In this document: piece after piece, positions 3,442 through 61,543 of the stretch | Layout: every line of letters starts with the position of its first letter | Position numbering within the stretch: position 1 is the stretch's first letter | Source: Microvirga sp. | GTDB taxonomy: Bacteria > Pseudomonadota > Alphaproteobacteria > Rhizobiales > Beijerinckiaceae | Assembly (NCBI GenBank): GCA_029266525.1 | Contig: JAQSWQ010000034.1 | Coordinates: 1 to 64,000 of the forward strand | DNA: 64,000 bases | Reading direction: 5' to 3' | The notes under the pieces: model-generated | The model's database searches: none | What the model was told of the DNA's origin: nothing | The model's input: the letters and a program-made list of their open reading frames with translations, nothing else | Translations under genes and position numbers: made by a program

Positions 3442-4182
3442 ATGGGCCGTCAATCCCTCGAGACGCCCCGCCTCTCGGTGGTCGTCCCGGTCCGCAACGA
3501 GGCCGAGAACGTGCTGCCGCTGATCGAGGAGATCGAGCGGTCCTGCGCGCCGCTGGCACCTTTCGAGCTCGTCTACGTCAATGACGGCTCGACCGACGGC
3601 ACGCAGGGCGAGCTCGTCAAGGCGCGCGCCTCGCGGCACTGGCTGCGGGTCCTGCGGCACGAGAGGAGCTGCGGCCAGAGCGCCGCCGTGCGGACGGGCG
3701 TGCGCGCGGCGCGCGGCCCGGTGATCGTCACGCTCGACGGCGACGGCCAGAACGATCCGGCCTTCATCCCGCAGCTCTACGCGAAGCTCATGGGATCGGG
3801 CGAGCGCGTCGGGCTCGTCGCCGGCCAGCGGATCCGGCGAGTCGGCGGGTTCAAGATGCTGCAGTCGCGCATCGCCAACGGGGTGCGCGGTGCGATCCTG
3901 CGCGACGGCACCCGCGACACCGGCTGCGGGCTGAAGGCCTTCCGGCGCGAGCTCTATCTGTCGCTGCCCTATTTCGACGCGCTCCATCGCTTCATGCCGG
4001 CGCTCGTCAAGCGCGAGGGGCTCGAGATCGCCCATCTCGACGTCGTCGACCGGCCGCGGCACGCCGGCAAATCGAATTACGGCCTGTTCGACCGGCTGTG
4101 GATCGGGATCCTCGACCTGTTCGGCGTGTGGTGGCTAATCCGCCGCCGCCGGCACCTGGCGGCCGTGCACGAGCTCGATTAG
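3442..4182 (+). CDS. glycosyltransferase family 2 (polyprenyl-phosphate/dolichol-phosphate type)
   Basis: LSVVVPVRNEAENVLPLIEEIE...YVNDGSTDGT...VTLDGDGQNDP. The start could also be 3385, overlapping the upstream gene. Confidence 0.85.
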   Translation: MGRQSLETPRLSVVVPVRNEAENVLPLIEEIERSCAPLAPFELVYVNDGSTDGTQGELVKARASRHWLRVLRHERSCGQSAAVRTGVRAARGPVIVTLDGDGQNDPAFIPQLYAKLMGSGERVGLVAGQRIRRVGGFKMLQSRIANGVRGAILRDGTRDTGCGLKAFRRELYLSLPYFDALHRFMPALVKREGLEIAHLDVVDRPRHAGKSNYGLFDRLWIGILDLFGVWWLIRRRRHLAAVHELD

Positions 4183-4205
4183 CCCGCGAGGCTCTGCCGC
4201 GGCGA

Positions 4206-5366
4206 TCAGGCCGGGAGCGCGCTTGCGGTCCGCTGCAAGCCCGCGGCCGTGCCGCGCCACGCCCGGATCTCGTAGGCGGGCACCGGCTCGTGGAAGCCCT
4301 TGAGCGCGAGCGGCTCGAGAGCGCCGGCCTCCACGCTGCCTTCGACCGAGAAGAAGACGGGCTCGCTGACCAGCACCTGCCCGGCCTTCGCCGCCGTGCA
4401 CAGGCGCGCGGCAAGGTTCGGGATGCGGCCGATCGCGGCGTAGTCGAGCCGGCGGTCGAAGCCGATCCGACCGAGCGTCGCCTCGCCTTGCGCGATGCCG
4501 ATGCCGAAGCCGAGCTGATGCCCCGATCGTCGCCAGCTTTCGGTCAATTCGCCGACCCGCGCCTGCATGTCGAGCGCCATGCGAACGGCGCGCTCGGGGT
4601 GGTCCGGGCAGGGCATCGGGTCGTTGAACAGCACCACGAGCCCGTCGCCGAGGAAGCGCTCGAGCGTGCCCTCGTAGAAGAGCACCAGCTCGCCGAGCGC
4701 CGCGTGATACTCCGCGAGGACGGCCATGACCTGCTCGGGCTCGGCCTTCTCGGAAAAGGCCGTGAAGCCGCGCAGGTCGCAGAACACGACCGTCACCTCC
4801 TGCCGATGGCTGCCGAGCAGCATCTCGTGATCGGGCGATGCGATGACGAGATCGGCCACCTGCGGCGGCAGGAGCCGCCGCAGCCTGCCAATGCGCTCGA
4901 TCTGCTCGACCTGCTCGGCGACGCGGCCCTCGAGGGCGCTGTTCCACTCCGCGAGCTCGCGGGCCTGCTCCTGCACCGTGTCGTGCAGCGCCTTCTGGCG
5001 CAGCATGGAGCGCACGCGGGCGAGGAGCGCGGCGTGCTCGAAGGGCTTCGTCAGATAATCGTCGCCGCCCGCGTCGAGCCCCTCGACGATGTCGCGCGTG
5101 TCCGCCTTCGCGGTGACGAGAATGACCGGGATGCTCTTGAGGACGGGATCCTGCTTCAGCGCCCGCACGACCGAGATCCCATCGAGCTTCGGCATCATGA
5201 TGTCGAGGAGGATGAGGTCGGGCTGAAGCTCGCGAGCCCGCGCGAGGCCCTCCTCGCCGTCCTCCGCGGTCTCGACCCTGTAGCCGTTCGCCTCGAGCCG
5301 CACCGAGAGGATCTCGAGGTTCTCGGGCGTGTCGTCCACCGCGAGGATGAGAGGAGGATCGCGCAA
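4206..5366 (-). CDS. response regulator receiver fused to class III adenylate/guanylate cyclase domain
   Basis: N-terminal receiver (ILAVDDTPENLEILSVRLEANGY...LILLDIMMPKLDGI...TAKAD...KPF) and C-terminal cyclase (VFCDLRGFTAFSE...FLGDGLVVLFND...NLAARL). Confidence 0.9.
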   Translation of the reverse strand: MRDPPLILAVDDTPENLEILSVRLEANGYRVETAEDGEEGLARARELQPDLILLDIMMPKLDGISVVRALKQDPVLKSIPVILVTAKADTRDIVEGLDAGGDDYLTKPFEHAALLARVRSMLRQKALHDTVQEQARELAEWNSALEGRVAEQVEQIERIGRLRRLLPPQVADLVIASPDHEMLLGSHRQEVTVVFCDLRGFTAFSEKAEPEQVMAVLAEYHAALGELVLFYEGTLERFLGDGLVVLFNDPMPCPDHPERAVRMALDMQARVGELTESWRRSGHQLGFGIGIAQGEATLGRIGFDRRLDYAAIGRIPNLAARLCTAAKAGQVLVSEPVFFSVEGSVEAGALEPLALKGFHEPVPAYEIRAWRGTAAGLQRTASALPA

Positions 5367-57030: not shown

Positions 57031-57480
57031 ATGGCGATGACGATGAACGGCGAGGTCGCGCTCCCGGCCGACCGCGCGACCGTGTGGGCGGCGCTCAACG
57101 ACCCCGCTGTGCTCAAACGCTGCATCCCTGGGGCGCAGGAGCTCGAGAAGCTCTCAGACACCGAGTTCCAGGCGACTGTCAGGGCGGCGGTCGGTCCGGT
57201 CAAGGCGACCTTCAAGGGTCGCGTCACGCTGACCGACCTCGACCCGCCGAACGCTTATCGGATTTCCGGCGAAGGGCAGGGCGGGGTCGCCGGCTTCGCC
57301 AAGGGCGGGGCGAGCGTGCGCCTCGCCGACGCCGATGGCGGCGGCACGCTCATGGCCTACGACGTCGAGGCGAATGTCGGCGGCAAGCTCGCCCAGCTCG
57401 GCGGGCGGCTGATCAACGGCGTGGCGAAGAAATACGCGGACGAGTTTTTTGCGAATTTTGCGAAGGAGCTGACGATTTAG
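57031..57480 (+). CDS. coxG: CoxG-like SRPBCC family protein
   Basis: MAMTMNGEVALPADRATVWAALNDPAVLKRCIPGAQELEKLSDTEFQATVRAAVGPVKATFKGRVTLTDLDPPNAYRISGEGQGG. Confidence 0.92.
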   Translation: MAMTMNGEVALPADRATVWAALNDPAVLKRCIPGAQELEKLSDTEFQATVRAAVGPVKATFKGRVTLTDLDPPNAYRISGEGQGGVAGFAKGGASVRLADADGGGTLMAYDVEANVGGKLAQLGGRLINGVAKKYADEFFANFAKELTI

Positions 57481-57518
57481 GACCTACGACCCGGACGTAA
57501 ATCCCCGCTAGGAGAGAT

Positions 57519-58328
57519 ATGATGGCCAAAGCCTCCAAAGGATTAGATGAGAGACACTGTCGCACCTGGGATGATCTGCGCGCTCAGATTCAAGGCGTCC
57601 AAGCTACGCTCCGGGATAGTGGGGAAGTACTGTGGTTCAGAGGATGCAGAGAGGCCAACCATAGCCTGCTGCCCTCCCTGATGCGAGACACTACTAATCT
57701 CAGCGAAAAGGACCACGACCAATTTGAACAGGACGTATTCTTCGAGTTCCAAGCACGGGCCGGTGAGCTTAGAACGAAGAATCTGAGCGAGTGGGAATAC
57801 TTGTTTTACGGCCGTCACTATGGGGTGCCTACTCGTACTAGACTGGACAGATACATTCGCTGTTGCTTTGTATTTTGCGCTAGAGGGCTGGACAGAACAC
57901 AATGAGCCGAGTATCTGGGTGGTTAATCCTTATCAGGTAAACGAGATTACGTGGGAGGACGCGATATAATATTACCTCGATACCTTGGAGAGTACGGGGA
58001 AGAATATTGGGATTTTGGTGAGTTGCTGGTATCTGGAGGAAAATGGGCGTGGGATGGCCCCGTTGCGATCTATCCTATACAGATTAATGAGCGGGTCAGA
58101 GCGCAGCGGGGGTGGTTCACGATCCATGGGAATGATCGAAGGCCCCTTGAAGAGCAATTTCCAAAGTTGGTGATCAAACTCGTGCTCGATGCGCCCTGCG
58201 TCACGGAAGGACGCTCGTTCCTTCAGATGTCGGGCTTCAATAGATTCTCGATCTACCCCGATCTAGAAAATCTCGCGCGTTGGATCCGCGAAGAGCGATT
58301 GCTCTGGGCGGACCGGAGGCGAGTTTGA
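57519..58328 (+). pseudogene. FRG-domain-containing protein gene with two frameshifts
   Basis: Frame 0: VLWFRGCREANHSLLPSLMRDT...EWEYLFYGRHYGVPTR; frame 1: LDWTDTFAVALYFALEGWTEHNEPSIWVVNPYQVNEITWED; back to frame 0: RDIILPRYLGEYGEEYWDFGELLVSGG... Confidence 0.8.
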
Positions 58329-58385
58329 CATGCGCCCGTGCTCGATTCGGTGCCGATCGGGTGGGTTCGACGACAGCCCCGGAAT

Positions 58386-58406
58386 CGCTCAAGAATGAGC
58401 GTTTTT
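58386..58406 (+). terminator. Rho-independent terminator after the FRG gene
   Basis: cgctca agaa tgagcg followed by ttttt. Confidence 0.65.
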
Positions 58407-58559
58407 GGGGGGACTGTTCAATCGGAGGGGCGCTTGACCAGCGAATCCGCCCGGTTCACACTCTTTTTTGACAGTCCAATGTCCAAGCGCCGGCCGCCCT
58501 AGGCCTGCGCAAATGAAGAGCCGGCCGTCACGTGCCGGCCCGCGAGGAGGAGGCAAGAC

Positions 58560-59054
<495 letters not shown>

Positions 59055-59074
59055 CCTGAAGCACCAGTGGCGCT

Positions 59075-59140
59075 GGCGGACAACGCCGACGATGTTGGCG
59101 GAAAACACCGACGATGTTGGCGGACGACGCCGATGATGTT
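59075..59140. repeat. three 22-bp tandem repeats between coxS and coxL
   Basis: tggcggacaacgccgacgatgt / tggcggaaaacaccgacgatgt / tggcggacgacgccgatgatgt. Confidence 0.9.
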
Positions 59141-59179
59141 GCGCAACATGATGCGCCACACGACGAAGGGGAGGGGATC

Positions 59180-61543
59180 ATGACGGCCACCGGCATCGGC
59201 GCTTCGGTGCGCCGCAAGGAGGATCAGCGCTTCGTCACGGGGCGGGGCCACTACGTCGACGACCTCACCCGGCCGGGACAGGCCTATGCCTATTTCCTGC
59301 GCTCGCCGCACGCCCATGCCGTCATCCGCGCGATCGACACGGGCGCCGCGCGGGCGAAGCCGGGGGTGCTTGCGGTGCTCACCGGCGAGGAGCTCGCGGC
59401 CGACAAGGTCGGCGGGCTGATCTGCGGCTGGATGATCCACTCGAAGGACGGCACGCCGATGAAGGCCGGCCCGCACCCGGCGCTGGCGCAGGGCAAGGTG
59501 CGCTACGTCGGCGACCACGTGGCGCTCGTGGTGGCCGAGAGCCTCGCCGAGGCCAAGGACGCGGCCGAGGCGATCCAGGTCGACTACGAGGTGCTGCCGG
59601 CTGTGGTCGATGCCGGTGCGACGCAGACGAGCGGCGTGCAGATCCACGAGGTCGCCCCGGACAACACCGTGTTCCGCTGGCACCTCGGCGACAAGAGCGC
59701 CGTCGATCAGGCCTTCGCGAACGCGAAGCACGTGACGAAGCTCGACATCACGAACAACCGCCTCGTCCCGAACGCCATCGAGCCCCGCGCCGCCATCGGC
59801 GAGTACGATCCGGGCAGCGACAGCTTCACGCTCTACACCACGAGCCAGAACCCGCATGTGGCGCGGCTCGTGCTGTCGGCCTTCATCGGGATTGCGCCCG
59901 AGCACAAGCTGCGCGTGATCGCGCCGGACGTCGGCGGAGGCTTCGGCTCGAAGATCTTCATCTATGCCGAGGAGACCGTGTGCCTATGGGCCGCGAAGAA
60001 GGTCGGCCGCCCCGTCAAGTGGACCTGCGACCGCATGGAGGCCTTCCTCTGCGACGCGCATGGGCGCGACCACGTCACCCATGCCGAGATGGCGCTTGGC
60101 GAGGACGGCAGGATCCTCGCTCTGCGAGTCTCCACGATCGCTAATCTCGGCGCCTATCTCTCGACCTTCGCCTCCTCGGTGCCGACCTATCTCTACGCGC
60201 CCCTCTTGTCCGGTCAGTACGACATCCCGGCGATCTATTGCGAGGTGGACGGCGTCTACACCAACACCGCACCGGTCGATGCCTATCGCGGCGCCGGAAG
60301 GCCTGAGGCGACCTTCGTGGTCGAACGCCTCGTCGAGGTCGCGGCGCGCGAGACCGGCATGGACCCGGCGAAGTTCCGCAAGAGGAACTACATCAAGAAG
60401 TTCCCCCACCAGACCCCGGTCATCATGACCTACGACGCCGGCGACTATCACGCGTCGCTCGCGAAGGCGCTCGAGCTTGCCGATTACAACGGCTTCTCGC
60501 GGCGCAAGCGCGAGAGCGCGCGGAACGGCAAGCTGCGCGGCATCGGGTTCTCATCCTATATCGAGGCTTGCGGCATCGCGCCGTCGGCTGCAGTCGGCTC
60601 GCTCGGCGCCGGCGTCGGCCTCTGGGAATCGGCCGAGGTGCGGGTGAACCCGACCGGCTCGATCGAGATCCTGACCGGCTCGCACGCGCACGGTCAGGGC
60701 CACGAGACCACCTTCGCCCAGCTGGTCTCGGACCGCCTCGGCGTATCGATCGACACCGTCAGCGTCGTCCACGGCGATACCGATAAGGTGCAGTTCGGCA
60801 TGGGCACCTACGGCTCGCGTTCGGGCGCAGTCGGGATGTCGGCGATCTACAAGGCGATCGACAAGGTCATCGCCAAGGGCAAGAAGGTCGCCGCCTACGT
60901 CATGGAGGCGTCCGAGGGCGACATCGAGTTCAAGGACGGCAAGTTCTCGGTCGCCGGCACCGACAAGTCGGTCGGCTTCGGCGATATCGCGCTGCAGGCC
61001 TACATCGCGCACAAATTCTCAGGCCAAGAGCTCGAGCCCGGGCTGAAGGAGGGGGCGTTCTACGACCCGACCAACTTCACCTTCCCGGCGGGCGTGCACA
61101 TCTGCGAGCTCGAGCTCGATCCGGACACCGGCATCGTCGCGATCGCGAAATGGACCGCGGTCGACGATTTCGGCGTGCTCATCAACCCGATGATCGTCGA
61201 GGGCCAGGTCCATGGCGGCGTCGCCCAGGGCGTCGGCCAGGCGCTGCACGAGGGCGCGGTCTACGACCAGTCCGGCCAGCTCGTGACCGCGAGCTACATG
61301 GATTACCAGATGCCGCGCGCGATCGACCTGCCCTCGCTCACCGTCGGCATGACCGTGACGCCCTGCCCGTCGAACCCGCTCGGGGTGAAAGGCTGCGGCG
61401 AGGCGGGCGCGATCGCGGCGCCGGCCGCGGTCATCAACGCCATCACCGATGCGCTTGGCCACGAGGACATCGCCATGCCCGCGACCCCGCAGGCGGTGTG
61501 GCGCGCCGCGCAGAAGGCGCGCATGCCGATAGCGGCAGAATAA
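59180..61543 (+). CDS. coxL: molybdopterin-binding large subunit of CO dehydrogenase-like hydroxylase, form II
   Basis: [47 protein letters not shown]...[10 protein letters not shown] (60281-60301)...[14 protein letters not shown]. Confidence 0.94.

Follow-up and report, generated by a model that had tools for sequence, protein, structure and literature searches.

An AT-rich islet between coxG and coxS

The stretch of DNA analysed here (the window, 64 kb) encodes a full-length FRG-domain (PF08867) protein at positions 57519-58328, laid out as three pieces that pass from frame 0 to frame +1 and back to frame 0. This is the single gene, on the plus strand, of an islet whose GC content was 0.51 over positions 57500-58249, compared with 0.65-0.71 across most of the flanks. 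The codon-position GC of the first and third FRG pieces (0.59/0.41/0.59 and 0.59/0.42/0.57) differed from that of coxG (0.68/0.47/0.87), with third-position values of 0.57-0.59 in the FRG pieces versus 0.87-0.91 in coxG and coxS.

The flanking genes are both intact and also lie on the plus strand. To the left is coxG (57031-57480; PF06240, E 2e-36), and to the right is coxS (58560-59054; Fer2_2, E 2e-32), which shares 86% identity with its counterpart in a congener. Upstream of coxS, the plus strand carries a promoter-like element at 58434-58462 (TTGACC-N17-CACACT), the only match in the window. Of 29 relatives, 15 carry the form TTGACC-N16-18-CANNCT ahead of coxS; we read this conserved element as the native coxSLM promoter. 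As it is kept, the islet separates coxG from the coxSLM promoter, and its outer bounds on the plus strand can be placed at 57481-58433, from the coxG stop to the promoter-like element. An AT-richer islet had been described in the original prediction at about 57500-58480. Base composition agrees with this, but the islet ends near 58430, with native spacer from 58434.

Downstream, coxL (59114-61543) carries the motif AYRGAGR, and the genes follow the order S-L-M. AYRGAGR is a signature of form II (BMS) enzymes (PMC12582533). Because of this motif and gene order, the cox cluster is classified by sequence as a form II (BMS), not form I, CO dehydrogenase-type operon. The CO-oxidising role of the form II type is less certain. 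Between coxS and coxL, at 59074-59141, a 22-bp repeat (TGGCGGACAACGCCGACGATGT) occurs three times with 86% matches.

The 3' side of the islet, beyond the FRG stop codon, carries a strong terminator-like hairpin at 58377-58410 on the plus strand (-21.7 kcal/mol, z -4.3), within which a terminator scan matched 58386-58401 followed by TTTTT. The hairpin occurs once in the genome. The FRG start lies 38 nt from the coxG stop, and the islet gene probably rides on coxG transcription, which would end at this hairpin.

Several other accounts of the islet were discarded. A transposon or repeat insertion was rejected: flanking repeats amounted to short chance pairs, no target-site duplication or mobile-element remnant was seen at the islet, and neither the hairpin nor the tail that follows the FRG gene was repeated elsewhere in the genome. 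A structured RNA was rejected for lack of any Rfam match. Foreign DNA beginning within coxG, whose last 15 codons are AT-richer, was also rejected, as the coxG C-termini of relatives are similar as protein and freely variable in length.

Organization of the FRG gene

Piece 1 (57519-57833, plus strand, frame 0) begins at an ATG preceded by an AGGAG ribosome-binding-like site at 57510-57514 and extends from the N-terminus through the HYGVPTR motif (PF08867 profile positions 3-69, E 6.3e-10). Alone, it scored 40.3 bits in the profile search against a curated cut-off of 25. Piece 2 (57835-57966, plus strand, frame +1) continues with LDWTD and VALYFALEG (profile positions 72-93, E 0.002). Piece 3 (57963-58328, plus strand) was assigned by alignment to intact relatives. 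Here frame 0 is back at about 57963, and the C-terminal half, with the conserved C-terminal motifs of the family (RxxAQRGxFTIHG and FSIYPDLENLA), runs to a stop codon at 58326-58328.

The FRG-domain identity given in the original prediction was thus confirmed by PF08867 matches in consecutive frames, and the frame moves it had located, from 0 to 1 near 57832-57838 and back to 0 near 57963, were right in both coordinates and frames. Their description as compensating did not hold. Both shifts are present, but the frame 0 middle stretch contains two stops, TGA at 57903-57905 and TAA at 57924-57926; the shifts therefore do not rescue each other and translation stops at 128 aa. The sole product of ordinary translation from ATG 57519 spans 57519-57905 on the plus strand, and the last ~23 of its 128 residues are out of frame.

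TRLLDW, a motif invariant in intact FRG relatives, is interrupted by the first frame change (about 57834). It lacks one residue as a result, and a small deletion therefore seems likelier than an insertion. With this invariant motif disrupted and only 128 aa translated, the copy as sequenced should be inactive. With two frame changes in place of a single open reading frame, the gene was classed as a broken copy. No second FRG match or intact copy was found in the same genome, where the window gene is the only FRG match.

Recent inactivation or sequence error

Apart from the two shifts, the FRG gene shows no sign of decay. The read-through protein matched 14 PADLOC PDC-S15 models (best E 1.4e-39) and scored 134.2 bits on the best of them, compared with 135.6 and 135.7 bits for intact relatives. 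Among 43 near-invariant columns it matches the family at 35, a level comparable to that of the more divergent intact FRG members, and 2 of the 8 misses lie at the break itself. No further stops were present. The earlier view of a decaying gene, offered alongside that of sequence errors, does not fit a protein with no degradation beyond the two shifts.

The break is thus either very recent or a sequence error. We favour a real pseudogene, arising by very recent double inactivation rather than long decay. Possible, though on balance the poorer account, is that the organism carries a working, uninterrupted gene and that at least one of the frame changes was introduced by sequencing or assembly of this 135-contig draft. 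The undegraded read-through protein, scoring as intact relatives do, is what such errors would leave. To estimate the frameshift background of the draft, 417 kb of the genome was compared with 1.8 Mb of the congener. This revealed 3 candidates in 72 orthologous genes (26,891 codons, about 81 kb of conserved coding sequence). None was at an obvious homopolymer, and one was a phage-capsid-like pseudogene that also contains a stop. That other conserved genes of the draft also look frameshifted, away from homopolymers, counts against a real break, and sequence error is therefore possible at the FRG gene.

Other evidence argues for a genuine lesion. At the background rate of the draft, 0.02-0.03 shifts would be expected in the 0.8-kb FRG gene; two were observed, ~130 bp apart, and a uniform error process is therefore unlikely, while a local assembly fault is possible. 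Neither FRG shift lies in a homopolymer, and no convincing frameshift was found among the neighbouring orthologous genes across the ~24-kb cox region of the same contig. Two script flags in that region were dismissed: the first came from a match in an antisense frame, the second from a SnoaL-like gene with an upstream extension that overlaps an AAA gene.

By our reading of the alignments, the same genome contains an apparently frameshifted ComEC-like gene (L140, ~400), an apparently frameshifted polysaccharide-deacetylase-like gene (L143, ~18528), and a phage-capsid-like pseudogene (L128, 5220-6324) with a duplicated fragment at 3948-4292.

Origin of the FRG gene

The coxG-coxS junction is empty in the relatives checked. 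In the one congener compared, the spacer is 165 bp and lacks both islet and FRG gene. Likewise, no FRG match was found in this spacer (5-540 bp) in any of the 15 relatives in which coxG lies directly ahead of coxS. Because FRG is missing from these 15 spacers, the site has the empty state in relatives that marks a recent horizontal acquisition. Horizontal acquisition had been proposed at the outset, and it is borne out both by the foreign composition and by the lack of the gene at this site in the congener and the further relatives compared.

FRG genes are patchy within the family, occurring in 31 of 298 genomes (about 10%) and 16 of 43 genera. The closest FRG proteins share only ~31% identity with the window protein within the family and ~34% within the order. 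A non-exhaustive search of 84,980 GTDB genomes using two degenerate patterns gave a best match of 37% identity, from a Limisphaerales MAG. The window protein grouped with this MAG in a phylogenetic tree (support 90/86), in a clade that mixes Bacillota, Chloroflexota, Pseudomonadota, and Verrucomicrobiota. No close donor was found among the GTDB genomes (degenerate pattern), viral contigs, phages, or plasmids. Relatives are also carried on plasmids (77 records, many conjugative) and on viral contigs (50).

These data point to a new member of a known family, gained horizontally by the host lineage, in an ordinary case of gain then loss (or sequence error). It is highly improbable that the gene is ancestral at the coxG-coxS site and was lost in relatives. 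The presence of FRG genes in about 10% of the family would be in keeping with ancestry, but the foreign composition, the low identity to FRG proteins of the family and order, and the absence of FRG at this site in every relative checked all oppose it.

Our preferred reading, to which we assign a probability of roughly 0.6, is that the FRG gene was gained by horizontal transfer into the gap that separates coxG from the coxSLM promoter, and that its frame was then broken very recently. A stand-alone gene of the PADLOC PDC-S15 kind would have entered the host lineage and settled at this point, leaving both coxG and the form II coxSLM promoter undisturbed; two short indels ~130 bp apart would then have broken its reading frame. 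The lack of a target-site duplication or mobile-element trace at the insertion counts against this reading, as do the other apparent frameshifts of the draft.

More improbable still than ancestry is that the cell produces two fragments (the 128-aa N-terminal product and a 125-aa C-terminal product from an internal GTG at 57951, which does exist in the C-terminal frame) or that programmed frameshifting yields the full-length protein. Two opposite shifts would be required, intact relatives have a single open frame, and the first break deletes a residue of an invariant motif; programmed frameshifting was rejected on the first of these grounds and because by-eye inspection showed no slippery sequence at either site. 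That the gene functions through unusual double recoding, or that two half-proteins form a split FRG enzyme, is scarcely credible.

Read as horizontal gain followed by a very recent break, the locus joins other examples of candidate single-gene defences that are gained and soon lost. It illustrates a neutral landing site, downstream of coxG and ahead of the coxSLM promoter, and adds nothing new on FRG mechanism.

Predicted function and setting of FRG relatives

Like other members of the FRG family (PF08867), the window protein contains WFRG, HYGxPTRLLDWT, ALYFA, RxxQxGxFT, and YPDLxxLA in order over about 270 residues. It differs in its twice-interrupted reading frame and shares at most 37% identity with any relative found. 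The phage-defence candidate PDC-S15, a single-gene system, was its best family match with a score like that of intact relatives, although the window copy is broken. PDC-S15 is an uncharacterised candidate system (PMC12482510).

Frg domains have been placed in the ADP-ribosyltransferase superfamily as potential anti-viral effectors with possible NADase activity (PMC9503650). Membership of the Frg clade, as that paper proposes, would extend to the window protein, but a model of the FRG relative L041 (pLDDT 85) gave no significant fold match, with no PDB match at E<=0.001. Its best weak PDB matches included several ADP-ribosylating proteins (ParT, RhsP2, pertussis-like, cholix, and Arr) together with unrelated Arp2/3 chains, and its top viral structure matches, also weak, were ART-PolyVal domains. 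These modelled similarities agree with the ADP-ribosyltransferase proposal, short of proof. Sequence searches gave no credible relative of solved structure.

FRG is a widespread family suspected of phage defence and predicted to provide ADP-ribosyltransferase/NADase-type effectors. Judging from the literature and from relatives, the intact protein would most likely be an ADP-ribosyltransferase-fold enzyme (an effector with NADase or ADP-ribosylating activity) that arrests the cell upon infection.

The accessory, defence-like contexts that the original prediction ascribed to FRG genes were recovered among relatives, on plasmids and viral contigs and next to or fused with defence-like genes. By their annotated neighbours, some relatives are located by or within defence-like genes: one adjoins an SMC/AAA_21 protein (L060), one stands before a GmrSD_N gene (L047), and one adjoins HicA (L038). 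In Pseudoalteromonas (L062, 2510-4612), an FRG domain is fused to the C-terminus of the type I methylase HsdM, with the specificity subunit downstream.
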